A program made the translations under genes and the position numbers. Below are positions 29,685 through 46,338 of a DNA stretch of 64,000 nt, in pieces. The DNA is from an uncultured Ignavibacteria bacterium (GTDB lineage: Bacteria > Bacteroidota > Ignavibacteria > SZUA-365), in contig CAJXVM010000024.1 in NCBI GenBank assembly GCA_913061095.1, positions 1 to 64,000 on the forward strand, given 5' to 3'. The notes beneath the pieces are model-generated. The model did no database searches. It was not told the DNA's origin and saw only the letters and a program-made list of their open reading frames with translations. Every line of letters starts with the position of its first letter. The first letter of the stretch is position 1.

Positions 29685-31610
29685 CTATTTAACAAGCATC
29701 ATCGATTTCGTCTGTGTCTGACCGTTCACGGTAAGCGAATAGAGATAGCTCCCGCTCGGCAGATCCGACGCACTGAATGCGACTTCATGGGAACCGGAGG
29801 GAGTCCATTCGTCCACCAGGGTCGCGACCTCTTCCCCGAGCGCGTTGAACACACGAAGCGTTACGAATCCCGATGCGTCGAGCCGGTAGCGAATGGATGT
29901 CGACGGATTGAAGGGATTCGGATAATTCTGCTCGAGCACAAACTGCTGCGCATGCGGCATGGCGTCGACTGCGGTCGAGGAGGAATTATAGAAGTACATG
30001 TTGTCCACGTACACCGTGTTGGGATCGCTCACCAGCACGATCTGCGCAAGGTGTTCCTTTGTCGTCAGGCCGGTGAAGGACGCAAGGGGGATGTCAAGAC
30101 TCACCCAGGTCTCCGATGCGATCGCAGGTGTCGTGCTGCTGCTGAAGGTGAGTTCATGATTCACGTCATCACCGCCGCCGAACGCGCCGTCCGCACCGAA
30201 ATCAACGAGCTGGACTTTGAAGACCGCCGGCTCGGCCGTGGGATCAGGCGTCCAGATGTCCATGTGGAAATGCGTCATGTCCGTCGCATCGATCGTCTCC
30301 GACGTGAATTCGATGCCCGCGAAAACGAGATTGGAATACTTCTTCACGTCGTCGCCGGCGACCTGCACATCTGACACATCGGCGTTGTCCCACTCTGCGG
30401 ACCATGTATCGACCGTCACGTCAGTATAGGCGTTGCTGAACAGCGAGATCACATCGCCTTCAGCCACCGTGGGAGTCGGGGCGGGCTCCGTCGGCTCGGC
30501 CGGCGCGCTTCCCCGATAGAAATACACGTTGTCGACATATACCGTGTTCGGATCACTCACCAGCACAATCTGCGCAAGGTGTTCCTTCGTCGTCAGGCCC
30601 GTGAAGGACGCGAGCGGGATATCGAGGCTCACCCAGGTCTCCGATGCGATCGCAGGTGTCGTGCTGCTGCTGAAGGTGAGTTCATGATTCACGTCATCGC
30701 CGCCGCCGAACGCACCGTCCGCACCGAAATCAACGAGCTGCACTTTGAAGACCGCCGGCTCTGCCGTGGGATCGGGTGTCCAGATATCCATGTGGAAATG
30801 CGTCATGTCCGTCGCATCGATCGTCTCCGAATTAAACTCGATCCCCGCGAAAACGAAATTGGAATACTTCTTCACGTCGTCGCCGGCAATCTGCACATCC
30901 ATGACATCCGCGTTGTCCCAGTCGGCTGACCAGGTATCGACCGTCACGTCAGTATATGCGTTACTGAAGAGCGAGATCACATCTGCCTCGGCAACCGTGG
31001 GAGTCGGGGCGGGAGTATCGGGCTCATTCGTTGTCACGATTTTCTCCGAAAACGTGATATTGTCGAAGTAGATGACACGATCATCCGGCCTGCCGGCCAG
31101 ATCGAAATCAGGGAACACGATGATCTGATCGATATCGGTGGATTCCGGCTGTCCCAGCTTTGTGGAAAAATCGAACACCAGCTCTTCCCATTGATTCACG
31201 AGGGTATTTGCAACCTTGATCTCACCGGTCGATGCGCCTGTCGCTGTTGCGAACTTGATGCCAACATCACTGATGACCGATTTGTACACCATGATTTTCA
31301 CAGTGCAGTTCGTCTCGTCGAGTGTAAATGTGCCGATGTCCGCACCATGCTGTGTCTCGCATCCCGCCCAGGGATTGCCCGCCTGCAGCGCCGTGAAGCG
31401 AGCCACGGTTGCCGACGTGTTCAATCCTGATGCGTCAGGATTCGTTACGATTTCCAATGCGGGATTGGTATCGTTTTCAAAAACCGACCATGTCCATGAA
31501 GCACCGTTGCCGCCCTGTTCAAAATCAATCGGAGCGTTCTGCGCAAATGTCAGACCGCTCAACATGATCATGCACACAAGCGTCACCATGCCCGTACCAT
31601 ACGTTCTCAT
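29685..31610 (-). CDS. T9SS-secreted protein with two tandem glucan-locus modules (putative carbohydrate-binding)
   Basis: About 641 residues from the ATG at 31608-31610 (AGAGGA upstream), signal ending GLTFAQ. Residues about 20-205 form a beta-sandwich like a CBM4/9-type or choice-of-anchor domain (IDQIIVFPDFDLAGRPDDRV and then IYFDNITF). Two nearly identical modules of about 165 residues follow, each beginning APTPTVAExDVISLFSNAY and ending DPNTVYVDNxYFY, then a T9SS sorting domain (LEQNYPNPFNPSTSIRYRLD...TQTKSMMLVK). The same module occurs twice in the lipoprotein at 37187. Last gene of the minus-strand glucan operon, 55 bp after the transporter-GH3 gene. Binding of beta-glucan is inferred from context. 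Confidence 0.8.
   Translation of the reverse strand: MRTYGTGMVTLVCMIMLSGLTFAQNAPIDFEQGGNGASWTWSVFENDTNPALEIVTNPDASGLNTSATVARFTALQAGNPWAGCETQHGADIGTFTLDETNCTVKIMVYKSVISDVGIKFATATGASTGEIKVANTLVNQWEELVFDFSTKLGQPESTDIDQIIVFPDFDLAGRPDDRVIYFDNITFSEKIVTTNEPDTPAPTPTVAEADVISLFSNAYTDVTVDTWSADWDNADVMDVQIAGDDVKKYSNFVFAGIEFNSETIDATDMTHFHMDIWTPDPTAEPAVFKVQLVDFGADGAFGGGDDVNHELTFSSSTTPAIASETWVSLDIPLASFTGLTTKEHLAQIVLVSDPNTVYVDNVYFYRGSAPAEPTEPAPTPTVAEGDVISLFSNAYTDVTVDTWSAEWDNADVSDVQVAGDDVKKYSNLVFAGIEFTSETIDATDMTHFHMDIWTPDPTAEPAVFKVQLVDFGADGAFGGGDDVNHELTFSSSTTPAIASETWVSLDIPLASFTGLTTKEHLAQIVLVSDPNTVYVDNMYFYNSSSTAVDAMPHAQQFVLEQNYPNPFNPSTSIRYRLDASGFVTLRVFNALGEEVATLVDEWTPSGSHEVAFSASDLPSGSYLYSLTVNGQTQTKSMMLVK
29990..30485 (-). 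repeat. Intragenic module repeat, unit A
   Basis: About 495 bp nearly identical at DNA level to 30518-31014 (offset 528 bp). It encodes the second copy of the ISLFSNAY module. The similarity extends to synonymous sites, which points to recent duplication or conversion. Confidence 0.8.
30518..31014 (-). repeat. Intragenic module repeat, unit B
   Basis: Partner of 29990-30485 and first module in the protein. More distant versions are in the gene at 37187-39109, around 37200-37690 and 37722-38215. Confidence 0.8.
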
Positions 31611-31665
31611 TTTATCCTCTGCATAACTGATGAAACAATGACCGCCATACTGGTGGTGCAATTTG

Positions 31666-34600
31666 TCAGGTTTGGTCATACGTCAATCCATATCCGAACG
31701 GGAATAACGGATCATAGGGATCGTCACCCCGGTTCCAGTTGTCCCGATCGCTGCGGGGCCAGGAAAAGCGCAGCTTCCCGGTAAAATCCTCGTCCCCACA
31801 CAGCACATCCGCGATACCCTGGCCCTCCGATCCGGGCAGCCAGGCCGCGACGAATGCCTGTGATTCCTCAAGTTCACTGTTGACGACCAGCGGCCGGCCG
31901 GACAGCAGTACCGCAACAACGGGAATTCCCTGTGCCCGAATGCGCCGGATCGTCTCAAGATCCTCGGGATGCATGCTGGCGAGTTCCAGCGAACTGCGGT
32001 AGGGTTTCATCACCATATCCGGACGCTCCAGGGATGATCCCAGCGCGACCGATTCGCCTTCTCGCACATCTCCCAGCCCCTCCGCGTAGGGAAGCTCACC
32101 GATAACGACGACGGCGGCATCAAACGATGCGTTATCGGCGGCGGAGCCATCCACGCTCAGCACTGCATCGGACAGCCGCGATTGCAGCGCTTCCCAGATC
32201 GACGTGCCGCCCTCAATGGACGCATTGTCTGATACTCCCTGCCAGGCGATGGTGAATCCGCCGCACTGATGCCCCCGGTTGTCCGCGCTTTTCCCGGCGA
32301 CGAGGATGCGCCCGTTCCCTTTCAGCGGCAATATGCCTTCGTCGTTCTTCAGCAGCACAAGGGATTTGCGGACCGCCTCGCGCGCGACTTCCCTGTGGTC
32401 ATCAGAGCCGAAACTCGGATGATTCGACAGTTCGCGCTCCGCGGGTCGAGGCTGATCGAAAAGGCCGGCAATGAATTTCACGGTCAGGATCCTGCGCACG
32501 GCATCGTCGATGCGCTCCATGGGAATGGAGCCGTTCGCGATGAGGCCGCGCATGGTGCTGATGAACTCTTTCCATTTCTCCGGAACCATCACCATGTCGA
32601 TCCCGGCATTGATCGCGAGAGCGACGGCCTCGCCAAAATCGTCCGCCAGCTGATCAATACCGTTCCAGTCCGATATCACAAAGCCGCGGAATCCCAGTTC
32701 CGTTTTCAGCACATCCGTCAGGAGGTACTTGTGTCCATGGCACTTGTTCCCGTTCCAGCTGTTGTATGATGCCATCACGGTTAGGGCGCCTGCTTCCAGC
32801 GCATCATAATACGGGCGGATGTGTGTCTTCTGCAGTTCCGCGAGCGAGACGGCCGTGTCCCCCTGGTCAATCCCGTCCGTCGTGCCACCATCGCCGACCC
32901 AGTGCTTCGCACAGGCCACGACATGCTCCTGTCCGAAATCTCCCTGCAGTCCTTTGACAAAGCGCCCGCCGCAGAGGCGCACGGTCTCCGGATCCTCGGA
33001 ATAGCTTTCGTATGTGCGGCCCCAGTGATCATTCCGCGCCACCGCAAGCGTGGGCGCGAACGTCCACTCCACACCGGTCGCCCGCACTTCCCGCGCGGTG
33101 ACACGTGCGATGCGCTCGAGCAGATCGGGATCACCCGTGGCGCCGAGCCCGATGTTGTGTGGAAACACCGTCGCACCGCGAACGTTGTTATGCCCGTGAA
33201 TCGCATCGACGCCATAGAGAATGGGAATCGCGAGATGCTCCGCATCTTCTTCCACCGAGGCCATCCAGTATGCGTCGTTCATCGCGACCCAGTCGGCGGG
33301 CGTGTTCTCACCGGGGACCGAGCCGCCGCCGCTGAGCACCGATCCGAGATGATAGGCCTTCACCTCTTCGGGACTGACAGCAAGACGCTCGGTCTGCGTC
33401 ATCTGCCCTATTTTCTGATCGAGATTCATGCGAGAAAGCAATGCCTCGACCTTCTGCGCGATATCGTTCTGTTCCATAATCTGATCCATGACCTCTGCGT
33501 GTTGAAGAGCAACGGTAGTCAGTTCCGGCGAAGTCTCCTCAGCACTCCCCCGCCTTCGTTCCAGCTCGACGCGTACTTCGTGTGCAGTCTGTTCGGTGAT
33601 GGGGAAACGCGCGATCGCCCATATGGCGATGGCGGACGTCACCATCGGGATCCCGGCATCGAAAAGCCGCATCAGGAAAATGGTGCGCTCCGACTGCATC
33701 CCTTCGTTGGCGACATCGAAACCCGTCGCTTCGAGAAGGAATCCGCCGCCGGCCAGCGCCGCCGCCATTCCGAGTTTCACCACCCACCAGAAAATCGAAC
33801 CGAACATGCCCTCGCGCCGTTCGAAGGTGGTCAGTTCGTCGACGTCGACGACATCCGCGACCATGGAGCCCATGAGTGTGAACAGGCCGCCGAGGCCGAA
33901 TGCGAGCAGCGGGGCGGGCAGCAAAACGAGCCAGGGATACGACGGATTGTAGCAGAACCACTTGAGACCGTAGCCGAGGATGGAGATTCCCGTCGACCAG
34001 AAGAACGCACGTCGTTTGCCGATCTTCGTGCCAAGCCAGGTGATTAGCACGATTACGCCAAACGTGGAGATTGCGCCCAGTGTGCCGGCGTACCCGGCGT
34101 ACTCCGCTCCGAGCTGCTGATTGCCCGCGAATACGTAATAGATGATCACGTAAAACTGGAAAGAGGAAACCAGCATGAAGCCGTTGAAGACCATGAACGT
34201 CGCGACGCACAGCTTGAGGAAGGGGCCGGATTTGACCGTCTGACCGAATCCTTTGAAAAACTCAACCATGTCACGACGAAACGCCTTCGCAGCTCCGCCC
34301 ACGCGCTTCGCTTTTCCCTCGCTCACTGCAATGTCGCGGAACGGTTCTCGCAGAAAAAGGGCCGGGAGAATGCCGATGCCGATCGTGACAAATGCGATAA
34401 TGATTGCGAGACCGGCGGCTCCGTCAACCTGATCGTTGAAAAACCCCTTATAGGTCATGATCCAGAGAAACCACGGGGACACGACATAGGCCAGCTGGCC
34501 GATAAAGTTCTGTACTCCCATCAGTCGTGTGCGCTCATGATAGTCGGGTGTGAGTTCATACCCGAGAGCGACCCAGGGAGTAGCAAACACCGTATAGCCG

Positions 34601-34989
34601 AGATAGAAGATGATGGATCCGACGAGGAAAAAGATGAAATAGAATGTCTCGCTCTGTCCCCGCGGAAGCTGCCAGAGCAGCGCAAAGGTGATACCGGCGA
34701 TGATCGCGCCGACGAAAATGAACGGCCGGCGCCGGCCCCATCGCGTCCGGGAATGGTCGGAAATGTATCCCATCAGTGGGTCGGTCAAGGCATCGGTCAG
34801 TCGCGGAAGCGCTCCGAGCAGCCCGACCAGCGCAGGATTCATTCCCAGACCGAGGTTGAGGACGATGATCATCCCGCCGCTTGCCGCGGCCAGTGTATTG
34901 TTGATGAACGCCCCCAGCCCATAAATCACCTTATGGGTGAAGGAGATGCGATCTTCCGGTGCGGTGGCGTACCGCTCGCCTGCTTTCAT
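31666..34989 (-). CDS. Fusion: GPH/MFS-type sugar transporter + GH3 beta-glucosidase in one polypeptide
   Basis: About 1107 residues, one uninterrupted frame (ATG at 34987-34989; a GTG five codons upstream is possible). Residues 1-465 are a 12-helix glycoside-pentoside-hexuronide symporter: DALTD (two Asp spaced like MelB D55/D59), then SDHSRTRWGRRRPFIF, the family loop motif. Residues 466-505 are a charged helical linker. Residues 506-1107 are a complete GH3: KVEALLSRMNLDQKIGQMTQ, VDAIHGHNN, VACAKHWVGDG, nucleophile Asp774 in GFVISDWNGI, and the C-terminal half with SLVLLKND and PFGYGLTY. GPH proteins normally have both ends in the cytoplasm, so the enzyme would meet imported disaccharide at the inner face. 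Fourth gene of the glucan operon. Either half alone would be routine; the join is unusual. Confidence 0.9.
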   Translation of the reverse strand: MKAGERYATAPEDRISFTHKVIYGLGAFINNTLAAASGGMIIVLNLGLGMNPALVGLLGALPRLTDALTDPLMGYISDHSRTRWGRRRPFIFVGAIIAGITFALLWQLPRGQSETFYFIFFLVGSIIFYLGYTVFATPWVALGYELTPDYHERTRLMGVQNFIGQLAYVVSPWFLWIMTYKGFFNDQVDGAAGLAIIIAFVTIGIGILPALFLREPFRDIAVSEGKAKRVGGAAKAFRRDMVEFFKGFGQTVKSGPFLKLCVATFMVFNGFMLVSSFQFYVIIYYVFAGNQQLGAEYAGYAGTLGAISTFGVIVLITWLGTKIGKRRAFFWSTGISILGYGLKWFCYNPSYPWLVLLPAPLLAFGLGGLFTLMGSMVADVVDVDELTTFERREGMFGSIFWWVVKLGMAAALAGGGFLLEATGFDVANEGMQSERTIFLMRLFDAGIPMVTSAIAIWAIARFPITEQTAHEVRVELERRRGSAEETSPELTTVALQHAEVMDQIMEQNDIAQKVEALLSRMNLDQKIGQMTQTERLAVSPEEVKAYHLGSVLSGGGSVPGENTPADWVAMNDAYWMASVEEDAEHLAIPILYGVDAIHGHNNVRGATVFPHNIGLGATGDPDLLERIARVTAREVRATGVEWTFAPTLAVARNDHWGRTYESYSEDPETVRLCGGRFVKGLQGDFGQEHVVACAKHWVGDGGTTDGIDQGDTAVSLAELQKTHIRPYYDALEAGALTVMASYNSWNGNKCHGHKYLLTDVLKTELGFRGFVISDWNGIDQLADDFGEAVALAINAGIDMVMVPEKWKEFISTMRGLIANGSIPMERIDDAVRRILTVKFIAGLFDQPRPAERELSNHPSFGSDDHREVAREAVRKSLVLLKNDEGILPLKGNGRILVAGKSADNRGHQCGGFTIAWQGVSDNASIEGGTSIWEALQSRLSDAVLSVDGSAADNASFDAAVVVIGELPYAEGLGDVREGESVALGSSLERPDMVMKPYRSSLELASMHPEDLETIRRIRAQGIPVVAVLLSGRPLVVNSELEESQAFVAAWLPGSEGQGIADVLCGDEDFTGKLRFSWPRSDRDNWNRGDDPYDPLFPFGYGLTYDQT

Positions 34990-35080
34990 GCGCCTGAACT
35001 CCACGTGTCAATGGGTTTCTCCGGTGCGATCGGACAACACAGCGGTTGTCGCCTTCTGCCGTGCTCTATGCCGGAAGGAG

Positions 35081-35902
35081 CTATGATGCGACCTCCTCGT
35101 ACACGCGCACATAGTCGATGAGCATGCGCTGCGGGAATATGGTATTCTCGTTCGGCGCGCCGACCCAGCCGCCGCCGACGGCCAGATTGAGGATGATGTA
35201 GAATGGATGATTGAACACCCATTCACCGGGAACATCCTCGCGCGAAACGGTGTGGTACAGGGTGCCGTCAACAAACCAGCGGATCTCATCCGCCTTCCAT
35301 TCGACAGCGAAGGTGTGAAATCCCGTGTCGAAACGGTCATTGGGGAGGTCGTACCGCTTCGTCACCGCCTGGGCCGCGGAATATCCCGGCCCGTGGAGAC
35401 TGCCGTGAAGGGTGCTCGGCTGCTGTCCGCGATACTCCATGATGTCGATCTCGCCGCACTGCGGCCAGCCGACCGTTTCGATGTTCGCGCCAAGCAACCA
35501 GAACGCGGGCCACATGCCCTGGCCCCAGGGCAGCTGAATACGCGCTTCGAAGCGTCCGTACGTGCGTTCGAACAAATCCCGGGTCACGATACGCGCCGAT
35601 GTATAGGGCTGTCCGAGGTACGATTCCTTTCGCGCCGTGATCACGAGGTTTCCTTCGCCATCGAGCGACGCGTTTTCGGTTCTGTCAGTGTCGTATTCCA
35701 GCTGGGCGTTCCCCCAGTCCGTTCCGATGTCATGATCCCACTTCGTCGAATCCGGCGGGAGCCCGGCGGCACCGTCAAATTCGTCCTGCCAGACGAGCCT
35801 CCACTGGGAGGATCCCGGATCGGAAGCGTCGTCACCGCAGCCACTGAGGAAAAGGCCGAGAGTCAGCATGGTGAGACAACTCTGTATAAGGATGTGTTTC
35901 AT
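35081..35902 (-). CDS. GH16 endo-beta-glucanase (laminarinase-like) lipoprotein
   Basis: 273 residues. Lipobox LSGC with Cys22, so membrane-anchored outside the cytoplasm. GH16 fold throughout: WQDEFDG, GRFEARIQLPWGQGMWPAFW, and the catalytic signature GEIDIMEYRG with nucleophile Glu151, Asp153 and acid/base Glu156 (the E-x-D-x-x-E form with Met typical of laminarinases and related 1,3-beta-glucanases rather than 1,3-1,4 lichenases), FHTFAVEWKADEIRWFVDG, and a final MLIDYVRVYE. It would cut beta-1,3-glucan chains outside the inner membrane. Its ATG overlaps the stop of the ROK gene by 4 bp; the transporter-GH3 gene follows after 91 bp. Confidence 0.93.
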   Translation of the reverse strand: MKHILIQSCLTMLTLGLFLSGCGDDASDPGSSQWRLVWQDEFDGAAGLPPDSTKWDHDIGTDWGNAQLEYDTDRTENASLDGEGNLVITARKESYLGQPYTSARIVTRDLFERTYGRFEARIQLPWGQGMWPAFWLLGANIETVGWPQCGEIDIMEYRGQQPSTLHGSLHGPGYSAAQAVTKRYDLPNDRFDTGFHTFAVEWKADEIRWFVDGTLYHTVSREDVPGEWVFNHPFYIILNLAVGGGWVGAPNENTIFPQRMLIDYVRVYEEVAS

Positions 35903-37206
35903 ATGCGCACCTGATGATATCGCGGAGATGAAAAAAGTGTCGGATCGGCGAATGCGGCGTTGAGGACAAGTGTTGATGCACCAATGGCGACCGCGCTGGG
36001 ACCAAGCTCACCGATACAGATCTCGGTTGCTGCGACGGATGTAACATAGGTGCGCTCGCGCACGATGGACCGCAGACGTTCGAGCAGCAGATCTCCCGCC
36101 CGCGTGAGGCTGCCCCCGAGAATGATCATGGCGGGATTCATCACATTGAGCAGTCCGGCAATCGCGATGCCGAGATGCTCTGCCGCTTCACTGACAACTT
36201 TCGCGGCAAGGGGATCCCCCGCGCGTGCGGCATCCGCAAGCTGGAGAATTGTCATTTCTTCCGAGCTGAGAGCTGTCTGCTGATACAGCGATCGCAGCGC
36301 CCGGGCACGCGCCAGCAGTGCATCCGTCCCGATAAAGGTTGCCAGGCAGCCCCGCAGACCGCAGACGCAGGGATCGCCTTTCGGGTCAACGGTCATGTGG
36401 CCGATTTCTCCAGCCACCCCGGTGCTCCCGCGATAGATTTCACCACCGAGAATGATGCCCGCTCCGATGCCAGTCGCAACCTTGATGTAGGTAAAGTCCC
36501 GCACATCCCGGCCGGCCCCCCACCATCCTTCCGCAAGCGCACCGAGATTCGCGTCGTTATCCACCAGTATCGGGACGCCGTATCGCCGGTGCAGATTCTC
36601 CAGCCCGATGCGTCCGCGCCAGGATGGCAGCACAACATCTGATATGCGCTGCAGATGGCGAGGATCGACAGGGCTGGGGACCGCGACCCCGATCCCGAGC
36701 AGCCTGCGTGTTCCATTGCCATTGCGTCCCATGCATTCGTCACATAATTCCATCACCGCGGATCGGCTTGCCTCGACGTCTCCGTCGACCGGTCGCTCGC
36801 GCTCCTTCCACTCCAGCACTTTTCCGCGCAGATCCGTCAATGTGACCGAAATGTGCGTCGCTCCGAAATCCACTCCCAGGATTTCGAACGCATCGTCCTG
36901 GAATTCCAGCACGACTGGCCGTCTGCCGCCGCTGGAGGGTTCCATCCCGACTTCCGCCACCAGTCCCGATTGAAGCAGTTTTCGCACGATGTCCGACACC
37001 GTCGAGCGCGCGAGCTTCGTGCGCCGGGCGATGTCGGCGCGGGAGATGCGACGCTCCCGCCATATCAGCTCAAGGACGATATCGGCGAGTGAACGCGGTG
37101 CCTGCGTTCCCGGGAGCGACAGGTCTGCTCCGTACGTGGCATCGGTATTCAGCCCGATCGAGGCCGCGGGCAGATTCGAGAGCGGTTTATTCGTGGAAGT
37201 AAACAT
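35899..37206 (-). CDS. ROK-family transcriptional regulator of the glucan locus
   Basis: About 435 residues from the ATG at 37204-37206, which overlaps the end of the upstream gene by 20 bp; longer in-frame starts are less likely. Residues 35-95 form a winged helix (SRADIARRTKLARSTVSDIV). The ROK sugar-kinase-like domain has LGVDFGATHISVTL, DNDANLGALAEGWWGAG, GIGAGIILGG and the zinc motif CVCGLRGCL; the usual Glu after GCL is Ala. Such NagC/XylR-type proteins release DNA on binding a sugar or sugar phosphate. Second gene in the operon, so likely autoregulated. Candidate operators lie at 39190-39204 and 39325-39344. Confidence 0.88.
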   Translation of the reverse strand: MFTSTNKPLSNLPAASIGLNTDATYGADLSLPGTQAPRSLADIVLELIWRERRISRADIARRTKLARSTVSDIVRKLLQSGLVAEVGMEPSSGGRRPVVLEFQDDAFEILGVDFGATHISVTLTDLRGKVLEWKERERPVDGDVEASRSAVMELCDECMGRNGNGTRRLLGIGVAVPSPVDPRHLQRISDVVLPSWRGRIGLENLHRRYGVPILVDNDANLGALAEGWWGAGRDVRDFTYIKVATGIGAGIILGGEIYRGSTGVAGEIGHMTVDPKGDPCVCGLRGCLATFIGTDALLARARALRSLYQQTALSSEEMTILQLADAARAGDPLAAKVVSEAAEHLGIAIAGLLNVMNPAMIILGGSLTRAGDLLLERLRSIVRERTYVTSVAATEICIGELGPSAVAIGASTLVLNAAFADPTLFSSPRYHQVRI

Positions 37207-39109
37207 TGTCGATATAAATCGTGCGGAGATCACCTGAAATAACGATTTGTGCGATGTGCCCTCGCGTAACGAGTCCGGTGAAGACTGAGAGCGGGATATC
37301 AAGACTGCTCCAGTTGCCAGTGGTGATCGCGGGAGTGGTTGAAGCATTCAGCGACACTTCATGCTCGACGTCATCGCCGCCATCGAATACACCATTGGGT
37401 CCGAAATCAACCAGCTTGATTTTCAGCACCGCGGGATCGGTGATGACATCCGGAGTCCAGACGTCCATGTGAAAATGCGTCATGGCTGTGGCATCGATGG
37501 TCTGGGAGGTAAACTCGATCCCGGCGAACACGACACTGGTGTATTTCTTGACGTCATCCCCCTCAATCGTGATGTCGGCGAGATCGGCGTCATCCCAGAC
37601 CGCGGACCAGGTGTCCACCAGCACGTCATCATAGGCATTGCTGAAAAGTGAGATCACTTCCGACGCCGGGACGGTCGGTGTGGGAGCAGGCACTGCAGGT
37701 TCGGTCGGCATGTCGCCTCGATAGAAATAGATGTTGTCGACGTACACCGTATTAGGATCGCCTGAAATGATCATCTGCGCGAGATGGGCTTTTGTTCTCA
37801 GTCCGGTGAACGCCGAAAGCGGGATATCAAGCCCGACCCAGCGATTGCTCGCCAGTGCAGGCATCGATGAGCTCGTCAGAGTGAGTTCGTGCTCGGCATC
37901 ATCCCCGCCGCCGAATGCACCGTCCGCGCCGAAATCAACCAGTTTGATTTTGAATACAGCCGGCGGGTCCGTCGGATCCGGCGTCCAGAAGTCCACGTGA
38001 AGGGTGGTCATGTCCGAGGCGTCAATCAGCTGCGAGGTGAACTCGATCCCGGCGAACACGAGGTTGGAATATTTCTTCACATCGTCACCCTCGATCTGGA
38101 TATCGGATACGCCGGCATCGTCCCAGTCGGCGGACCAGGTATCGACCGGGACGTTGGAGTAGGCATTGCTGAAAAGCGAAATGACATCGGCAGCGGCGAT
38201 CGTCGGCACGGGCGCCGGTGCGGCGGGTCCGGGTGCCGCTTCGCCGACCGTGACCGTCACCGTGCCGTCGACGTCCACCGATCCGAGCGTGGCGCTGATC
38301 GTGGCCGTCCCCAGGCCGACGGCGGTGATAAGCCCGTTCTCGTCGACGGTCGCAACGCCGTCATCGGAAGAGGAAAATGTAAAATACCCGGGCAATGCGT
38401 AGATGGTATTGGGCACCCCGCTCTGATCATAGGTGACGCCGGTCCCTTCGACGGGAAAGCTGTCGTTAATCTCCGCCGTGACCGTACGGCTTGTCATGAA
38501 CGGTTTCGGATGTGCGAGTGTCCCGAGGCGCTCGAACTGTACGTCATCGATGAACAGCTCGTATCCGTTTCCGTTCTCCGGTCCCTCGGCCAGGAATAGG
38601 AGTCCCCGTTCCTGCACGAGTTTCTCGGGAAGCGGAATGGGAAGGGTGTATTTTCTCCATGTCGTGGAGACAGGCAGATCGGACTTCAGCGCGACATAGC
38701 GAGAGGTGCCGGAGTTGTCATTTCCGAAGCCGACCTCATTGAGCGTGGCAGGCATGCTCCCTTTTGCCCAGAAGGTCAGCGCGTCATATCCCGACAGGTC
38801 GCGTCCGCCCGCGCTGACAAACGTGCCGCCCGCGAACGATCCGGACGGATCGCCCTCATTCGGAATGACGAACATCAGCGACTTTGTGCCGCGGTATGTC
38901 ACCGAAGTCGAGATATCAAGGGCATCGACCTTTGAAGCGCCAAAGGCATGGTATTGAACACCGGGACCGAATTCGTCAATGAACACTTCCGCAGTCGTGG
39001 GATACGCAGCAGGCTCGAGTGTGCTCTCGTCCCTCTCGCAGCCGGCCGTGACCAGTATCATGACGACGGCCGCAGAAGCTGCGAAACGGATCATACTATT
39101 CGCGGTCAT
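37187..39109 (-). CDS. Lipoprotein with Ig-like domain and two glucan-locus modules (putative glucan-binding)
   Basis: 640 residues. Lipobox VTAGC with Cys24. Residues about 35-200 are a galactose-binding-type beta-sandwich (FWAKGSMPATLNEVGFG, LFIDDVQFERLG). Residues 205-295 contain a BIG2-type Ig fold (VATVDENGLITAVGLGTATI). Two 165-residue modules follow (DVISLFSNAYSNVPVDTWSA and EVISLFSNAYDDVLVDTWSA), each closing with DxxTVYVDNIYFY or a variant, homologous to the pair in the T9SS protein at 29685. No enzyme motif is seen. It occupies the place where other Bacteroidota loci have a surface glycan-binding lipoprotein. First gene of the operon, transcribed from the promoter at 39205-39233. 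Confidence 0.8.
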   Translation of the reverse strand: MTANSMIRFAASAAVVMILVTAGCERDESTLEPAAYPTTAEVFIDEFGPGVQYHAFGASKVDALDISTSVTYRGTKSLMFVIPNEGDPSGSFAGGTFVSAGGRDLSGYDALTFWAKGSMPATLNEVGFGNDNSGTSRYVALKSDLPVSTTWRKYTLPIPLPEKLVQERGLLFLAEGPENGNGYELFIDDVQFERLGTLAHPKPFMTSRTVTAEINDSFPVEGTGVTYDQSGVPNTIYALPGYFTFSSSDDGVATVDENGLITAVGLGTATISATLGSVDVDGTVTVTVGEAAPGPAAPAPVPTIAAADVISLFSNAYSNVPVDTWSADWDDAGVSDIQIEGDDVKKYSNLVFAGIEFTSQLIDASDMTTLHVDFWTPDPTDPPAVFKIKLVDFGADGAFGGGDDAEHELTLTSSSMPALASNRWVGLDIPLSAFTGLRTKAHLAQMIISGDPNTVYVDNIYFYRGDMPTEPAVPAPTPTVPASEVISLFSNAYDDVLVDTWSAVWDDADLADITIEGDDVKKYTSVVFAGIEFTSQTIDATAMTHFHMDVWTPDVITDPAVLKIKLVDFGPNGVFDGGDDVEHEVSLNASTTPAITTGNWSSLDIPLSVFTGLVTRGHIAQIVISGDLRTIYIDNVYFHE

Positions 39110-39189
39110 GTCTCGTCTCCAGTTCTATGAAAAATGAATGAACGATCGCGGGAAAGAATTTCAGCCCGGAGGACTGGTTGGCATTGATG

Positions 39190-39204
39190 ACTTTGTTCGA
39201 TGAC
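39190..39204 (-). promoter_or_regulatory. Candidate operator at the glucan operon promoter
   Basis: Minus strand GTCATCGAACAAAGT immediately after the -10 element. CGAACAAAGT recurs in the same position relative to the divergent promoter (39335-39344). TTTGT-N6-ACAAA at 39192-39207 forms an imperfect inverted repeat. The position over the start site suits a repressor. Confidence 0.55.
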
Positions 39205-39233
39205 AAAATAATGTTGGCAACACCATTTGTCAA
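39205..39233 (-). promoter_or_regulatory. Sigma70-type promoter of the minus-strand glucan operon
   Basis: On the minus strand TTGACA (39228-39233), 17-base spacer, TATTTT (39205-39210). Gives a leader of about 90 bases to the ATG at 39109. Confidence 0.65.
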
Positions 39234-39295
39234 GAAAAAAATCATCCCGACCGCCATAATTATCCATTCTTAAGGACTATATGCACATTTTTTTC

Positions 39296-39324
39296 TTGAC
39301 ATCGCTCAGAAAACATGCTACATT
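39296..39324 (+). promoter_or_regulatory. Sigma70-type promoter of the glycosidase-barrel gene
   Basis: TTGACA (39296-39301), 17-base spacer, TACATT (39319-39324). Leader of about 88 bases to the ATG at 39419. Divergent partner of the promoter at 39205-39233. Confidence 0.65.
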
Positions 39325-39344
39325 GTTTGCGATTCGAACAAAGT
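39325..39344 (+). promoter_or_regulatory. Candidate operator at the glycosidase-barrel promoter
   Basis: GTTTGCGATTCGAACAAAGT directly after the -10. It shares CGAACAAAGT with the opposite promoter, in the same orientation relative to transcription, and together with the preceding TT (TTGTTnG...CnAACAA) forms an imperfect inverted repeat. Confidence 0.55.
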
Positions 39345-39418
39345 ATGCCGCAAGATGTTGCTCGGTGGCCCAAACGTGTTTCCGCCAGACAGACTTTCCA
39401 TTTCGTGAGGAGGCTCTC

Positions 39419-42400
39419 ATGACTTCGACCCGTGTTCGCGCTACCCGTGTGTTCTTCCTGATCATTTGCACTCTCACGTTCTTCCTTGCAGGAACATCAG
39501 CGTCCAACGCACAGGTCGCTGACGTCCGCGTCGTCACTGATGAAGCCGGTATGCGGCTTCAGGTCGATGGAAAGGACTTCATGGTCCTCGGTATGAACTG
39601 GGACTACTTCCCCATCGGCACGAATTACTCGTACAGCCTGTGGACCCAACCGGACGACATCATCATGGCGGCACTGGACCATGAAATGACCATGCTCCAG
39701 GAGATGGGTGTGAACGCGATCCGGCAGTACGTCGGCGTGCCCCCACGCTGGGTGAAATACATTTACGAGCGCTATGGCATTTACACGGTGCTCAATCATC
39801 CGCTGGGCAGATACGGCGTGACCATCAACGGCGTGTACTATGCGTCGACCGACTATTCGGATCCCGACACGCGCGCCTCCATTCTGGCGGAAGTCGAAGC
39901 CATGGTCAACGAGTTCCGTGACGTCCCGGGCGTGCTGATGTGGCTGCTGGGGAATGAGAACAACTACGGACTCGTGTGGAAATCCGCGGAAACCGAGGCG
40001 CTGCCGGAGGGTGAGCGAGACGCGGCCAAAGCGCGTTATCTGTATTCGCTATTTGGCGACGCCACCCGGCTGATCCACGGCATGGATACGAAACGCCCGG
40101 TGGCAATGGCGAACGGCGACCTGCAGTACATCGACATCATCGCCGAGGAGGTCAAGGAACTCGATATCTTTGGCACGAACGTCTATCGGGGCATGTCATT
40201 CAGGGATGCTTTCCAGGAGGTCAAGGACAAACTGGGAATCCCCATCATGTACACGGAATTCGGCGCGGACGCCTTCAACGCAAAAGAAATGCGTGAAGAC
40301 CAGCTGATGCAGGCGCGGTATCTCATCTCCCAGTGGCAGGAGATTTACGAGCAGTCAAGCGGAAAAGGCAGGGTCGGGAATTCGATCGGCGGATTGACAT
40401 TTCAGTTCAGCGACGGATGGTGGAAATTCAAGCAGGAAAGCAATCTTGATGTGCATGATGTAAACGCCTCCTGGCCGAACGATGCGTACCCGGAAGATTA
40501 CGTGCCCGGCGAAAACAACATGAATGAAGAGTGGTGGGGCGTCTGTGCAAAGGGGCCGACCGATGCCCGCGGTCTGTACAAGCTGTACCCGCGCGCGGCC
40601 TACTACGCGCTGCAGAAGGCACATCGGCTCGATCCGTACGGCCCCAATACCGATCTCAATACGATCCGGGAACATTTCGCTTCCATCCGTCCCATCGGAG
40701 CTGTTCTTGAGGCCCGCAGCGATCGGGCAGCACTGCTGACCGAAGCCTTCCAGGGTGTCCGCGTCAGCGGGCTCCGGATCGATATGAGCACGATCAGCAC
40801 CGGCGGACACAACATCAGCACGCCGGATGAAATCGATCCGAACGACGACAGCCGCCCGTCATTCCGTGGATTCGATCATCTCGAATCTTTCTATGCGAAA
40901 ATCGAAGCGCGTCCGGCACCCAATGTCTCGGGCAGCGTCGCGGTGAACGTGCTGGGCAATGTCCCCGAAAATCCAATCAATGAAATCTTCTACGAAAACC
41001 GAGGCCGCGTCCGCAATGCCGAGCTCGACGGCGAGCAGCTTCCACTCACCGATATTGAACGCGTCAAGGTATACAGCGCGAATGTGTCATGGGACAGCCA
41101 GTGGTTCACGCTCGATGGATTCTACCGCACGGGGCACTATCACTGGGGATATGAAGGCGACTTCTTCGGATTGTACCAGGAAGCCAATTACGGTCCGAAC
41201 ATCGACCTGTACAATGGGAACGCCCCGCTCGGTGTTGAAATCGAAGGGAAGAAGCAACTCAGTGGCCTGAAGATCGCGGTCGGACCGGAACTCTGGTGGG
41301 GAGCGAATCCCGCGGTCCTTCTGAAATACCAGCGGCAGCTGGGTTCGATCGTGGCAACCGCCATCTATCAGGAGGATCTCGATGATCAGGGACCCGCAGT
41401 GAGTTCGATCGCCATCCCGCTTCCGCCCACGCGAAAGGCCACTCTTCATCTGGAGACGGAGTACGGTCCGTTCGGCATTGAAGTCGGCGGTATCTGGTCG
41501 GGCGATACGAAAACCGGCCAGCCATTCCAGATCGCGAGCGGATCTCCCGGGAGCTACACGGTGCTGCAGGACTATATCAAATCGGAAGACGCCTTCGGCG
41601 CAAAAGCCAAACTGACGCTTTCCAGCGGCCGCTGGAACTGGTATGCGCAGGGTACTGCCAGGGGGCTTGTCGCGGATGGCGGTCCGACGTCGGCGCTCAC
41701 GTTCACGGGATGGAGGCTCAAGGACAACGGCTTCGGAAACCAGTACAACGTGCTGACAGGGCTCGCCGTGACCATGGGGAGTTTCCAGGTCGCTCCGAAC
41801 TTCCTGTGGCAGAAGCCCATCGTAGGACCGATCCCGGCGGACGTCCCGGCTCCGGGCAGACCGCGCAACGTGCTGGACGATCCCTTCGCCGTGCGCGTGA
41901 ACCGCGAGACCACAGCTGGCGAACTCCTCATCACCTACGATCCCACGCCCGCGACCTGGATGTACGCATGGGACAGCGACATGCGTGAGGACGCGAAATT
42001 CGCCGCCAGCGTGGGATTCGTATTCCGCCACCATCCGACGACGCAGGATGCCGCGATCGGCATTCTGGCCGACGGTCGAACCACCTTCGCATTTCCCGGC
42101 GCTGCGCCGGCGCGTGATCTCTGGGAGACGTACGCGCGCATCGTTTCAAAATTGCGTCCGGGGCTGGGCCTGATTGCGAACATCTATGGCGGCACCGGTG
42201 AACCAAACGGCGACGACGACCGTCTGATCCATCGCTATGGTGCCGACATCCGTCTCGTCCTGAACTCCCTGAAATTTGCCGCCATGGCGAAGGTCAACGA
42301 CTGGGGTCCGTACGACTATCATCGCGACTTCAATCAGACCTTCCCGCTGCAGCTGGTCGGTGACCTCTCCTATATGCTGGGATCGCCCGCCTGGTTCGAC

Positions 42401-42583
42401 CTCCCGCAGACGCGGATTGGACTGTGCGGAACGTGGCGATCCCTCGACGAGTATTCGCCGCGATACTGTCCGGGCCGGACGCCGAATGCCTCTGGTGTAT
42501 TGGAATGCGATCCCGACCTGCCGGGTGAGAACGGCAGCGAGTGGGAAATCCGTACGTACATTCAGTTGAATATTGGAATGTGA
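39419..42583 (+). CDS. Fusion: clan GH-A TIM-barrel glycosidase + predicted outer-membrane beta-barrel
   Basis: About 1054 residues from the ATG at 39419 (GAGGAGG upstream), signal ending SASNAQ. Residues 35-480 are a clan-A (beta/alpha)8 glycosidase: LGMNWDYFP, MGVNAIRQYVGVPP, acid/base Glu180 in WLLGNENNYG, nucleophile Glu280 in IMYTEFGADAF. It resembles the GH2/GH5/GH72 type; the exact family is not assigned. Residues about 500-1054 lack helices and alternate polar and hydrophobic residues in strand-length runs with many Trp and Tyr (WFTLDGFYRTGHYHWGYEGD, WNWYAQGTARGLV, LQLVGDLSYMLG), ending in the strand IRTYIQLNIGM, as in outer-membrane barrels. It may trim glucan at an outer-membrane pore. 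Divergent from the ROK operon, with GH3 next. Confidence 0.8.
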   Translation: MTSTRVRATRVFFLIICTLTFFLAGTSASNAQVADVRVVTDEAGMRLQVDGKDFMVLGMNWDYFPIGTNYSYSLWTQPDDIIMAALDHEMTMLQEMGVNAIRQYVGVPPRWVKYIYERYGIYTVLNHPLGRYGVTINGVYYASTDYSDPDTRASILAEVEAMVNEFRDVPGVLMWLLGNENNYGLVWKSAETEALPEGERDAAKARYLYSLFGDATRLIHGMDTKRPVAMANGDLQYIDIIAEEVKELDIFGTNVYRGMSFRDAFQEVKDKLGIPIMYTEFGADAFNAKEMREDQLMQARYLISQWQEIYEQSSGKGRVGNSIGGLTFQFSDGWWKFKQESNLDVHDVNASWPNDAYPEDYVPGENNMNEEWWGVCAKGPTDARGLYKLYPRAAYYALQKAHRLDPYGPNTDLNTIREHFASIRPIGAVLEARSDRAALLTEAFQGVRVSGLRIDMSTISTGGHNISTPDEIDPNDDSRPSFRGFDHLESFYAKIEARPAPNVSGSVAVNVLGNVPENPINEIFYENRGRVRNAELDGEQLPLTDIERVKVYSANVSWDSQWFTLDGFYRTGHYHWGYEGDFFGLYQEANYGPNIDLYNGNAPLGVEIEGKKQLSGLKIAVGPELWWGANPAVLLKYQRQLGSIVATAIYQEDLDDQGPAVSSIAIPLPPTRKATLHLETEYGPFGIEVGGIWSGDTKTGQPFQIASGSPGSYTVLQDYIKSEDAFGAKAKLTLSSGRWNWYAQGTARGLVADGGPTSALTFTGWRLKDNGFGNQYNVLTGLAVTMGSFQVAPNFLWQKPIVGPIPADVPAPGRPRNVLDDPFAVRVNRETTAGELLITYDPTPATWMYAWDSDMREDAKFAASVGFVFRHHPTTQDAAIGILADGRTTFAFPGAAPARDLWETYARIVSKLRPGLGLIANIYGGTGEPNGDDDRLIHRYGADIRLVLNSLKFAAMAKVNDWGPYDYHRDFNQTFPLQLVGDLSYMLGSPAWFDLPQTRIGLCGTWRSLDEYSPRYCPGRTPNASGVLECDPDLPGENGSEWEIRTYIQLNIGM

Positions 42584-42593
42584 GAAACGCATA

Positions 42594-42621
42594 GGCGGGA
42601 TTCCGATGCGGAATCCCCGCC
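42594..42621 (+). terminator. Hairpin between the barrel-glycosidase and GH3 genes
   Basis: GGCG-GGATTCC-GATGC-GGAATCC-CCGCC, a near-perfect stem of about 12 bp. No T tract follows (GCTCTCGCAGG), so it may be a partial terminator or an mRNA-stabilising hairpin that sets the level of the downstream GH3. Confidence 0.45.
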
Positions 42622-42674
42622 GCTCTCGCAGGAAACTCGTTTTGAAACAACATACGTCCTGAAAAGGGAAACCC

Positions 42675-44864
42675 ATGGAACACACGTCCTCTCCGGATAC
42701 GCAGATTCGTGATCTGCTGCAGCGCATGACACTCCCTGAAAAGATAGGTCAGCTGCAGCTGGTCAACGGTGCCGGCGGTACTATCCCGGACGACCTGCGC
42801 GCAGCGGTCGCCTCGGGAAGCGTCGGCGCTGTCCTCAATGAAGTCAATCCGGCGGTTGTTCATGAGCTTCAGAGCATCGCTGTCCATGACAGCCGTCACG
42901 GCATTCCGCTGCTGATCGGTCGAGATGTCATTCATGGTTTTGCGACAGTGTTTCCGATTCCGCTCGGGCAGGCCGCGAGCTGGAATCCGGAGATCGTGCG
43001 GCGCGGCGCCCGGATCGCGGCGCGCGAGGCCGCGGCGACAGGGATCAACTGGACCTTCGCTCCCATGGTCGACATCGGTCGTGATCCCCGGTGGGGCAGA
43101 ATTGCCGAGACGCTCGGAGAGGATCCCTATCTGAGCGGTGTGCTGGCCGCAGCGATGGTGCGGGGATTTCAGGGCGACGACCTGTCGCAACCCTCGAGCC
43201 TCGCGGCCTGCGCGAAGCATTTCGCCGGGTACGGCGCCAGCGAGAGCGGTCGTGACTACAACACGACGAATATTCCGGAAATCGACCTGCGCGACATCCA
43301 CCTTCCGTCATTCAAGGCGGCGTGTGACGCCGGCGTCGCCACCTTCATGACCTCGTTCAGCGACCTGAACGGCATTCCCGCAACCGCCAATGACTTCCTC
43401 CTGAAAAAAATTCTCCGTGAAGAATGGGGATTCGACGGCTTCGTCGTCAGCGACTGGGAGTCCGTTTCGCAGCTGTCGATTCACGGACTGACGCCGGACG
43501 ACAGAGAGTCCGCCTTCGAGGCAGCGCAGGCGGGGCTCGACATGGAGATGGCGAGCACGACCTTCGCCGCGCATCTCGCTTCCCTGGTCGAAGAAGGACG
43601 CATCCCGGCTCAGAGAATCGATGCGATGGTGGAAAATGTCCTGCGCATCAAATTCCGCCTCGGCCTTTTTTCACACCGGCACGAGCACACCGAAGATCTT
43701 TCCGTTATCGCACACCCTGACCACCTCTCCGCTGCAAAGGATGCCGCTGTCGAGAGCATGGTGCTGTTGAAGAATGACAACAATCTGCTTCCGCTGGCAA
43801 CAACGGAGCGCACCTCGATTGCCGTGATCGGACCACTGGCGGACGATCCGTACGAGCAATTAGGGACGTGGATATTCGATGGGGATGAACGGCACAGTGT
43901 TACTCCTCTGCAGTCCATCCGCCAGGCGGTTCCGGAGGATGTAACCATCCATCATGCGCGCGCGATGGCGACGACACGAAGCCGGGATCGGGAAGGATTC
44001 GACGAAGCACTGCGGTGTGCCGCCGATTCCGATGCCGTCATTCTCTTTCTCGGAGAGGAATCCATCCTCTCCGGGGAAGCGCACTGCCGTGCCGATATCC
44101 GCCTTCCCGGGAATCAGGAAGAGCTCATCAGGGAAATCGCCGCGATCGGCAAACCCGTCGTGCTCGTGATCATGGCGGGCCGGCCGCTGGCTCTCGAAGA
44201 CGTCATCGGCAGCGTGGACGCACTGCTTTACGCCTGGCATCCCGGCAGCATGGCGGGTCCGGCCATCGCCGACCTCCTGTTCGGCGCCGCGGCACCGTCC
44301 GGCAAACTTCCGGTCACGTTCCCGCGTGTCACGGGTCAGATCCCGATCTACTACGCCCACAAGAATACGGGCAAACCCGCGATTCCATCCGAGGTAATGC
44401 ACATCGACGACATTCCTCCCAGGGCACCACAGGTGTCATTCGGACTCACATCCTTCCATCTCGACGCGGGAGCCTCCCCCCTCTTCCCCTTCGGCTTCGG
44501 CCTTTCGTACACGACGTTCAGATACGACAATATCAGAACGGACACACCCGAGATTCAGCTTGGCGATCGCATCGTTGTCACCGCGGACCTGACAAACACC
44601 GGAGACCGGGAGGGCACGGAGATCGTGCAGCTCTACGTGCGTGATCTGGTCGGCAGCGTCACGAGACCGGTCAGGGAACTCAAGGCATTCAAACGCGTCC
44701 TTCTGCAGCCGGGAGAAATGCAGTCCGTTTCCTTCGAACTTCATACCGATGATCTCGCCTTTACCAACAGGCACATGCAGCGTGTCACGGAACCGGGTGA
44801 ATTTTACGCGTGGATTGGAGGCAGCTCGGAAACGGAGCTGAAAGCCCGGTTCATGGTCCGTTGA
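42675..44864 (+). CDS. bglX: GH3 beta-glucosidase, cytoplasmic (BglX-like)
   Basis: 729 residues and no signal peptide, so probably cytoplasmic. Typical GH3 order: RMTLPEKIGQLQLVNG, GRDVIHGFATVFPIPLG, NWTFAPMVDIGRDPRWGR, ACAKHFAGYGA, nucleophile Asp260 in GFVVSDWESV, then the alpha/beta sandwich (VLLKNDNNLLPL) and the FN3-like C-terminal domain (GLSYTTFRYDN, VQLYVRDLVGSVTRPVRELK). It would release glucose from short beta-linked oligosaccharides. Probably transcribed from the barrel-glycosidase promoter, 91 bp away. The locus therefore encodes two GH3 enzymes, this free one and the transporter-fused one. Confidence 0.9.
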   Translation: MEHTSSPDTQIRDLLQRMTLPEKIGQLQLVNGAGGTIPDDLRAAVASGSVGAVLNEVNPAVVHELQSIAVHDSRHGIPLLIGRDVIHGFATVFPIPLGQAASWNPEIVRRGARIAAREAAATGINWTFAPMVDIGRDPRWGRIAETLGEDPYLSGVLAAAMVRGFQGDDLSQPSSLAACAKHFAGYGASESGRDYNTTNIPEIDLRDIHLPSFKAACDAGVATFMTSFSDLNGIPATANDFLLKKILREEWGFDGFVVSDWESVSQLSIHGLTPDDRESAFEAAQAGLDMEMASTTFAAHLASLVEEGRIPAQRIDAMVENVLRIKFRLGLFSHRHEHTEDLSVIAHPDHLSAAKDAAVESMVLLKNDNNLLPLATTERTSIAVIGPLADDPYEQLGTWIFDGDERHSVTPLQSIRQAVPEDVTIHHARAMATTRSRDREGFDEALRCAADSDAVILFLGEESILSGEAHCRADIRLPGNQEELIREIAAIGKPVVLVIMAGRPLALEDVIGSVDALLYAWHPGSMAGPAIADLLFGAAAPSGKLPVTFPRVTGQIPIYYAHKNTGKPAIPSEVMHIDDIPPRAPQVSFGLTSFHLDAGASPLFPFGFGLSYTTFRYDNIRTDTPEIQLGDRIVVTADLTNTGDREGTEIVQLYVRDLVGSVTRPVRELKAFKRVLLQPGEMQSVSFELHTDDLAFTNRHMQRVTEPGEFYAWIGGSSETELKARFMVR

Positions 44865-45006
44865 AATCCCGCTGCGGTAGTGAACAACCGATAACACATC
44901 CCTTCACGGAAAACCGCCTGAAGTTTGTTTGCCGGGGAAGTATTTGATAGGTTGCGGAAGATCATCTCTTGTTCTCCGTGTTTCCTTCCCCAAGTGCCCG
45001 CGGCGG

Positions 45007-46338
45007 ATGACTGACAAGCTTCAACGATCCGGATGGTTGCCGTACACAGGTCTGCTTCAGTGCTGTATTGTCCTGTGTATCGTGTTCGCGATTGCTCCGA
45101 AGAGTTACGCGCAGGCTCCGGTGCAGCTCAGCCTCGACAGCGCGAAACAGTGCGCACTGGATTACAATAAAACAATCGCGAATGCGGATCTCTCCGTCGA
45201 TGACGCGAGAGCCCGCCTGCGGGAAACCGTCGCCCAGGGGCTCCCCCAGATACATGCCACCGTGGACTACTCCAATTTTTTTGGTTCATCGGCTTCTCTC
45301 GGCAACTTTCCGGGTATGCGCATTACGTTTAATCCCACAAGCAATCTGGGATTGACTGTCAGCCAGCTCGTTTTCAGCGCCGGATGGATTGTCGGCATTC
45401 AATCGGCAAAGCTGTATCGGGAGATGATGAAAGCCGGCAGGGAGAACACCCGTGCCACCATCCTTGCACAGGTCACCGAAGCGTACACGCTGTGCCTCGT
45501 TTCCGAGCGTATCCGACAGGGTCTCACGGAGAATCTCGAGAACATGCAAACCGTCCTCGATCAGACGAAGGTGATGGTCGACGTCGGCATGGCGGAAGAA
45601 CTTGACTATGACCAGCTCGCCGTTCAGGTCGGGACCATCGGCGATGCACTGAAAGCGGCGGAAAGACAGGTGGAAATCTCGCTGAATATGCTGCGACTGC
45701 TGATAGGCGTTCCGGCAGAGCAGATCATCACCCTCACCGACGGCATTGAAACACTCGTCGCGCACGCTGACTTCCGCGGCAGCCTCGACAGACCTTTCTC
45801 CCTTGAAGCCAATCCCGAATACCGGATGATGGCCCTGCAGACCGATATCGCCCGGCGTGCCGTGCGACTGGAACAGTCAACCCTCCTTCCGACGATTACG
45901 GGATTCTACAGCTATACGGAAAAACTGCTCAAACCGGAATTCGACATTACACCGAAGCATGTCATCGGACTGAACCTGAGCCTGCCGCTGTTCACCAGCG
46001 GGCTTCGATTGCACCGCATCGAACAGGCACAGCTCAACACGCAAATCGCTGAAAACAAAATGGAGCTCCTCACCCGCGAACTCGCCATCAGGGAAAAACA
46101 GCTCCGCTACAATCTGAGTAATGCCATCGATCAGTACGAAAACCGACGGACAAACATGGAGGTCGCGAAGAAGGTCTTCATGCATATGAACAACAAGTAC
46201 CAGCAGGGCATGGTCTCATCGCTGGACCTGACGACCGCGCACAACACCTCCATCCAGGCTGAAAATAATTTCTATAACGCCCTGCTTCAGCTGATACAGT
46301 CGCAGGTCGCCCTGGACAGACTCCTGAACACGCTGTAA
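45007..46338 (+). CDS. TolC-family outer-membrane efflux protein
   Basis: About 443 residues from the ATG at 45007, giving a signal peptide ending SYAQ. Two outer-membrane-efflux (OEP) halves with long coiled helices (KQCALDYNKTIANADLSVDD, REKQLRYNLSNAIDQYENRR) and strand segments between. The C-terminal NKYQQGMVSSLDLTTAHN is the usual TolC-type turn. First gene of the efflux operon; the adaptor gene follows after 77 bp. It forms the exit duct through the outer membrane. Confidence 0.9.
   Translation: MTDKLQRSGWLPYTGLLQCCIVLCIVFAIAPKSYAQAPVQLSLDSAKQCALDYNKTIANADLSVDDARARLRETVAQGLPQIHATVDYSNFFGSSASLGNFPGMRITFNPTSNLGLTVSQLVFSAGWIVGIQSAKLYREMMKAGRENTRATILAQVTEAYTLCLVSERIRQGLTENLENMQTVLDQTKVMVDVGMAEELDYDQLAVQVGTIGDALKAAERQVEISLNMLRLLIGVPAEQIITLTDGIETLVAHADFRGSLDRPFSLEANPEYRMMALQTDIARRAVRLEQSTLLPTITGFYSYTEKLLKPEFDITPKHVIGLNLSLPLFTSGLRLHRIEQAQLNTQIAENKMELLTRELAIREKQLRYNLSNAIDQYENRRTNMEVAKKVFMHMNNKYQQGMVSSLDLTTAHNTSIQAENNFYNALLQLIQSQVALDRLLNTL

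Follow-up and report, generated by a model that had tools for sequence, protein, structure and literature searches.

The seven genes of the locus

The window analyzed here is a 64,000-nucleotide stretch of one contig from an uncultured Ignavibacteria bacterium. Positions 29685–44864 contain seven genes, A–G, all of which are intact open reading frames; A–E lie on the minus strand and F and G on the plus strand. A first-pass annotation, made from the sequence alone, had listed the same seven genes as a compact β-glucan locus that lacks SusC/SusD and is built from fused parts. Each gene is borne out by its intact frame and by Pfam or NCBIfam matches, and the gene identities and the synteny in relatives agree in supporting a compact β-glucan locus that lacks SusC/SusD, contains fused parts and includes a single T9SS protein. 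The locus shares with a canonical PUL the co-localization of CAZymes (GH16, a GH158-like enzyme and two GH3s) with a local regulator of the ROK family, and departs from it in the absence of an adjacent susC/susD pair. No GH149 phosphorylase was found among the locus genes by gene reading and Pfam.

Gene E (37187–39109, minus strand) encodes a surface glycan-binding-like lipoprotein with the lipobox VTAGC. Its AlphaFold2 model (pLDDT 84.6) has three CBM-like sandwiches, the first separated from the other two by a Big_2 domain, with fold matches to CBM30, CBM11 and CBM4 at Z 12–13; SGBP-B (7kwb) is among its Foldseek matches. Gene C (35081–35902, minus strand) encodes a GH16 lipoprotein, a predicted endo-β-1,3-glucanase that matches PF00722 (E = 4e-28), contains the motif EIDIME and the lipobox LSGC, and also matches SKN1/KRE6. 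Gene A (29685–31679, minus strand, probable start ATG 31610) encodes a secreted protein that shares a homologous β-sandwich repeat domain with gene E. It ends in a T9SS type A sorting domain (TIGR04183, 35.8 bits, cut-off 23) and SprA is encoded in the window's genome, so both traits of a T9SS cargo are present. Gene A lies outside the conserved core of the locus, which makes T9SS an add-on and not the foundation of the system. The earlier claim that the locus relies on T9SS is weak, since this one accessory gene is the only one tagged. By sequence reading, positions 27569–29301 (minus strand), adjoining gene A, encode a LytTR-type response regulator and a LytS-like sensor kinase, which may be unrelated; positions 26257–27735 (minus strand) read as a C-type-lectin-like protein whose C-terminal tail is T9SS-like.

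Gene B (31666–35004, minus strand) is a single frame of 1112 amino acids that fuses a GPH/MFS_2 symporter (about 33514–35004) to a GH3 β-glucosidase (about 31666–33468), with Pfam matches to MFS_2 (PF13347, E = 3e-63) and to the N- and C-terminal GH3 domains (PF00933, E = 3e-80; PF01915, E = 5e-36). The symporter is full-length (PF13347 positions 25–427 of 427, 214 bits), with a TIGR00792 score of 160.8 bits that lies under the cut-off of 231, and the GH3 half contains the motif GFRGFVISDW. The established topology of MFS proteins would place this GH3 half in the cytosol. Full-length MFS–GH3 fusions also exist in GN15 (L071), Ignavibacteriaceae (L081) and two further genomes (G331, G459), which rules out an assembly error. 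Several Gemmatimonadota loci (L077, L082, L144) encode the MFS protein and a signal-peptide-free GH3 as separate genes of one cluster, and the two halves of B thus belong to one pathway. The second GH3, gene G (42675–44864, plus strand), is a BglX-type β-glucosidase (NF011678 in NCBIfam, 678.8 bits, cut-off 666). Neither G nor the unfused GH3s of the related loci inspected (clade I, below) have a signal peptide, so G is probably cytoplasmic, judging by its sequence. Just past gene G, positions 44929–47468 (plus strand) and onward encode a TolC-like outer-membrane factor and a membrane-fusion protein followed by a frame of ~1040 amino acids, an arrangement that resembles an RND efflux operon.

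Gene F combines a glycosidase with a predicted outer-membrane β-barrel

AlphaFold2, Foldseek, VIA-align and profile searches divide gene F (39281–42583, plus strand) into a GH158-like clan GH-A glycosidase (about 39524–40618) and an outer-membrane-type β-barrel (about 40757–42574). The start codon is more probably ATG 39419, which is followed by a signal peptide, than the longest-ORF start at 39281: the alignment of relatives begins at about residue 41–77, and the interval between the two positions contains an operator-like site. With 70 homologues as input, AlphaFold2 gave a model of mean pLDDT 80.9 and modest inter-domain confidence (pTM 0.57) that consists of a signal helix, a TIM barrel (res. 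36–400), a helix (res. 413–444), and a series of long β-hairpins (res. 447–1052).

Foldseek matches the first half of F to GH158 and GH157 laminarinases. The VIA-align list, taken up by the TIM domain and silent on the barrel, ties GH157, GH158, GH2 and GH5 at Z 25–27, and a profile search places BuGH158 nearest (6pal, E = 1.3e-8), followed by GH158(Pro), both at low sequence identity, and then by GH2 members. BuGH158 is an endo-laminarinase of B. uniformis with catalytic residues N136/E137 and E220 (PMC7157763); the residues of F aligned with them, N179/E180 and E280, are invariant in 70 sequences. These data describe the enzyme half as a clan GH-A TIM barrel whose nearest relative by sequence is BuGH158. 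Pfam reports a GH2_C-like TIM barrel (PF02836, E = 5e-9), but neither Pfam nor the AlphaFold2 model contains any GH2 N-terminal sandwich domain, the TIM domain following directly after the signal peptide, so that F lacks the domain set of a GH2 enzyme. It is likely annotated as a plain GH2. Distant relatives of the F glycosidase domain (26–28% identity) occur without a barrel in two loci (L068, L069), whose clusters contain several GH3s, a GH16 and T9SS proteins.

The second half of F is predicted to fold into a large outer-membrane-type β-barrel. In the model the hairpins reach the C-terminus and form about 22–26 strands, and the outer-membrane barrels PfeA, FepA, MOMP, AlgE and OccK are among the next Foldseek matches; together with the predicted signal peptide, these predictions would suit an outer-membrane barrel. 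The barrel module has no sequence relative in Pfam or PDB and, across 118 genomes, is found solely inside full-length F (17/17). A TonB plug (PF07715) matches at no place on the window's contig. Without a plug, a barrel this large would be leaky if neither its loops nor the glycosidase domain closed it. Short turns and long loops alternate along the hairpins, with the first strand starting at the periplasmic side if the C-terminus is taken as periplasmic. The model slightly favors a periplasmic glycosidase domain, unless helix 413–444 threads the lumen as in autotransporters.

Type Va autotransporters consist of an N-terminal passenger, a helix and a C-terminal 12-stranded barrel. F has its parts in the same order, with an N-terminal enzyme, helix 413–444 and a barrel that extends to the last residues, as would be expected of an autotransporter or EstA-like surface enzyme whose barrel anchors and exports the glucanase while the fragments enter via other porins or TonB receptors. 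We consider this reading rather unlikely, since no autotransporter Pfam model matches the whole of F or its barrel, and the F model, with more than 20 strands, predicts a barrel roughly double the 12-stranded one of type Va.

Conservation of the locus in two clades

F is matched at some score in 58 of the 296 genomes of the phylum, and 26 other near-full-length orthologues (53–66% identity) were identified among them. GTDB species genomes contain hundreds of F-matching places, including some in cultured Flavobacterium, Cloacibacterium and Robiginitalea. Across the 104 F loci analyzed, the neighborhood table places E and GH16 beside F almost always; a GH16 homologue is close to F in 87 of 110 clustered regions. 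The F–E–GH16 association exceeds chance and recurs in dozens of genomes, which provides the synteny in relatives on which the first-pass annotation had staked its proposal.

A tree of 102 F proteins splits into two clades with 100% local support. Clade I, which includes the F of the window, spans Ignavibacteria, Gemmatimonadota, Zixibacteria, Krumholzibacteria, Eisenbacteria and Rhodothermales, with ROK, GH3 and MFS as companions. Clade II is mostly from Bacteroidia and is accompanied by GH149, GH17, GH30, MFS and a regulator of Y_Y_Y/LuxR type; among F loci, ROK genes are confined to clade I. When only loci flanked by at least 7.5 kb on each side are counted, clade I (n = 19) has E in 17, GH16 in 16, ROK in 14, MFS in 11, GH3 in 11 and SusC/D in none, and clade II (n = 52) has E in 52, GH16 in 51, GH149 in 45 and SusC/D in 5. 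A protein of 1140 amino acids encoded in relatives, considered as a GH161, turned out to be a GH149 by its match to 6hq6. The 5-kb gap that relatives have downstream of GH16 does not hide SusC/D: its genes encode GH149 and GH17/GH30, with MFS beyond. Within the class to which the window belongs, one genome (G144, locus L063) encodes an F of clade II, the Bacteroidia type, at 8371–11559 of its locus together with GH149 and GH30, which suggests horizontal transfer.

The substrate indicated by the GH149, GH17 and GH30 genes that accompany F in relatives is β-1,3/1,6-glucan. An alternative is that the locus remodels or synthesizes β-glucan of the cell itself, with the GH-A domain of F working as a GH72/GH17-like glucanosyltransferase and glucan being exported through the barrel. 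In its favor, the GH72 model has weak matches to the catalytic domains of 10 of 25 F proteins (best 5e-6), and the GH16 has its matches to SKN1/KRE6. The conserved cluster contains no glycosyltransferase, and the symporter, the cytosolic GH3s, the GH149 phosphorylase and the sugar-type ROK indicate catabolism, making such a role for the locus highly improbable.

The F barrel and the SusC/SusD pair

The SusD models PF07980 and PF14322 have no match in the window's genome (completeness 100%), and PF14322 identifies no SusD in six other genomes of the same class that carry F or the MFS–GH3 fusion. SusD is found elsewhere in nine F-carrying genomes of other classes. None of the 28 clade I loci has SusC/SusD next to F, against 5 of the 76 in clade II (5/104 in all), so some relatives do possess SusC/D. 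The five exceptions (L057, L058, L064, L123 and L130, all Flavobacteriales) combine a barrel-bearing F with an upstream SusC/SusD pair, a seeming redundancy which a swap of one for the other leaves unexplained; barrel-bearing F and SusCD are thus not strictly exclusive. A degenerate PUL that lost its SusCD is disfavored, as SusCD together with barrel-bearing F is confined to one Flavobacteriales subclade of clade II, in a tree of F that is unrooted and cannot prove a gain of SusCD.

In family f30, F occurs both with and without the barrel. Four barrel-bearing loci (G112, G022, G544, G545) have no SusC/D in the flanks covered. Barrel-less F is encoded in five f30 genomes by frames of 447–496 amino acids, with a lipobox in those inspected. 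Two of them have the gene order SusC-SusD-GH16-F-GH149 (G104, G542) and a third SusD-GH16-F-GH149 (G543), in an analysis that included a Pfam check; SusC lies about 12 kb from the barrel-less F of G123, and the contig of G547 is too short to score SusC/D. Two other barrel-less loci (G242, G119) contain no SusC/D in the flanks covered. In the tree, solo F proteins are nested among fused ones, with three changes in all, and the five f30 solo forms probably share one barrel loss. SusC or SusD is nearby in 4 of 5 assessable solo loci versus 5 of 71 fused loci (Fisher p = 0.0005, for loci that are not independent), a swap that rests on few independent events.

The loss of the barrel in f30 where SusC/SusD adjoin F gives the best support to the barrel as the entry through the outer membrane, with barrel and E together doing the work that SusC and SusD would do, as far as gene content can tell. 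Passage of the outer membrane through the barrel protein, proposed from the window alone, is strengthened by this exchange. The barrel-less F proteins are lipoproteins, which fits a membrane-held enzyme and hence the autotransporter-like reading of F, but a mere anchor leaves unexplained why the f30 barrel was lost near SusC/SusD. The window's genome also encodes 26 TonB plug proteins, all of them on other contigs, and CAZyme clusters without susCD are already known; among Proteobacteria, GH149 clusters come with a single TonB receptor and no SusD (PMC5827456). The locus might accordingly be an ordinary CAZyme cluster whose oligosaccharides pass the outer membrane via general porins or via a TonB-dependent receptor, one of the 26 encoded elsewhere, the barrel serving some other use. 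This is unlikely, in our view, as the contig has no TonB receptor and the genome no second operator site (below), so that no co-regulated receptor is apparent, and as barrel and cluster are conserved together across phyla, with barrel loss where SusCD occurs.

A probable palindromic operator for the ROK regulator

Gene D (35899–37347, minus strand) encodes a ROK transcription regulator in which both the ROK domain (PF00480, E = 3e-61) and an N-terminal winged HTH are matched by Pfam; its start is more probably ATG 37206 than the longest-ORF start. A search for inverted repeats upstream of F revealed a 25-bp palindrome, ACTTTGTTCG-N5-CGAACAAAGT. The window contains one operator-like palindrome with 2 mismatches at 39320–39344 and a weak operator-like site at 39190–39214, with one perfect ACTTTGTTCG arm and 4 mismatches in all. 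The former is the only site with ≤3 mismatches in the window's genome, and the reversed control gave 0. All 17 of 17 ROK loci contain the palindrome, in most cases upstream of F and in some also upstream of E, with 27 occurrences observed versus 0–2 in Markov-shuffled sequence. Across 395 genomes, sites with ≤1 mismatch number only three, all of them immediately upstream of the F gene of a ROK locus. Exact copies were also found in clade I loci where no ROK gene was seen, some of them on truncated contigs, and Bacteroidia loci contain only matches with 4–5 mismatches.

The palindrome is likely the ROK operator. A unique, conserved palindrome argues for a dedicated local switch and counts against a co-regulated distant SusC/D pair. 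Such a pair elsewhere in the genome was the other outcome that would have spoken against the first-pass proposal; no SusD was found in the genome, nor a second operator site with ≤3 mismatches. Three Krumholzibacteria-type loci (L096, L135, L131) have extra operator copies away from F and near other genes, which suggests a wider regulon in loci of this type.

A model for β-1,3-glucan utilization

We propose, with a probability of roughly 0.6, that the locus encodes a self-contained system for utilizing β-1,3-glucan of laminarin type, possibly β-1,3/1,6-linked, in which the F barrel replaces SusC/SusD and the ROK protein D acts as repressor. We infer the substrate, the transport through the barrel, the membrane side of the glycosidase domain and the repression. 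First, lipoprotein E, perhaps with the T9SS protein A, would tether the glucan to the cell surface, where the GH16 lipoprotein C would cut it. The fragments would then pass the β-barrel of F, standing in for a SusC/SusD pair, as the GH158-like domain trims them at the mouth of the pore. At the inner membrane, the symporter half of B would import short oligosaccharides, to be cleaved on arrival in the cytosol by the GH3 half of B with the assistance of the cytosolic GH3 G. Finally, D would repress both the leftward E-D-C-B-A and the rightward F-G genes through the palindrome until freed by a sugar ligand.

More tentatively, and at somewhat less than even odds, F may be a new kind of outer-membrane importer that combines an endo-glucanase and a pore in one polypeptide, fills the SusC/SusD role without a TonB plug, and is paired with an inner-membrane transporter–glucosidase. 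If the F barrel does import glucan, it would provide a one-protein alternative to SusCD that works outside Bacteroidia too. The cultured Flavobacterium species that carry F make the import idea directly testable; in two of them, Flavobacterium gelidilacus and Flavobacterium degerlachei, the flanks covered around F contain no SusC/D.

Comparison with known glucan utilization systems

The closest parallels are systems for β-1,3-glucan. The 1,3GUL of B. uniformis combines GH16, GH158 and GH3 with SusCD (PMC7157763), and resembles the window locus in its surface GH16, GH158-type endo-laminarinase, GH3, SGBP-B-like multidomain lipoprotein and local regulator. The 1,3GUL has a SusC (TBDT), a SusD (SGBP-A) and an HTCS, whereas the window locus has no SusC/D, a ROK regulator, a GH158-like enzyme with its own barrel and an MFS symporter fused to GH3. 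BuGH158 (6pal) and GH158(Pro) (9oro) are like F in catalytic fold and NE...E residues; F differs by an extra β-barrel of 600 residues and low sequence identity.

β-1,3-glucan clusters of the GH149 type without susCD were noted in 2018 (PMC5827456). The GH149 PULs and susCD-less clusters described there share GH16, GH3/GH30/GH17 and a sugar transporter with the window locus, and clade II F sits in clusters of this type. The window locus has cytosolic GH3s in place of GH149, and the barrel fusion of F and the ROK operator are absent from the description of those clusters. The suggestion of the first-pass annotation that the locus may be a distinct type of system therefore stands in that it differs from the classic PUL, and is better stated as a variant, given that β-1,3-glucan clusters without susCD were already reported. 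Searches of the open-access literature returned no description of a glycosidase–porin fusion, an MFS–GH3 fusion, the swap or the operator; the barrel fusion, the exchange for SusCD and the ROK operator appear to be new.

Laminarin PULs with GH16, GH17, GH30, GH149 and MFS are also known (PMC6246565, PMC6298971, PMC13188888). Those of Formosa, Polaribacter and Muricauda share GH16, GH17, GH30, GH149 or GH3, and MFS with F-type loci, and the window locus differs from them in having no GH17, GH30 or GH149. In the Formosa and Polaribacter loci a TBDT and a SusD are present. The descriptions of these PULs make no mention of the barrel half of F. Few carbon pools turned over by bacteria are larger than the laminarin-type glucans. 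The usual marker for uptake loci in the phylum is the SusC/SusD gene pair, by which F-type loci would be missed or misfiled; through the palindrome, the non-Bacteroidia form can be recognized by its sequence. The upstream gene group of Muricauda lists a ‘GH2’ (PMC13188888), which is probably an F orthologue.
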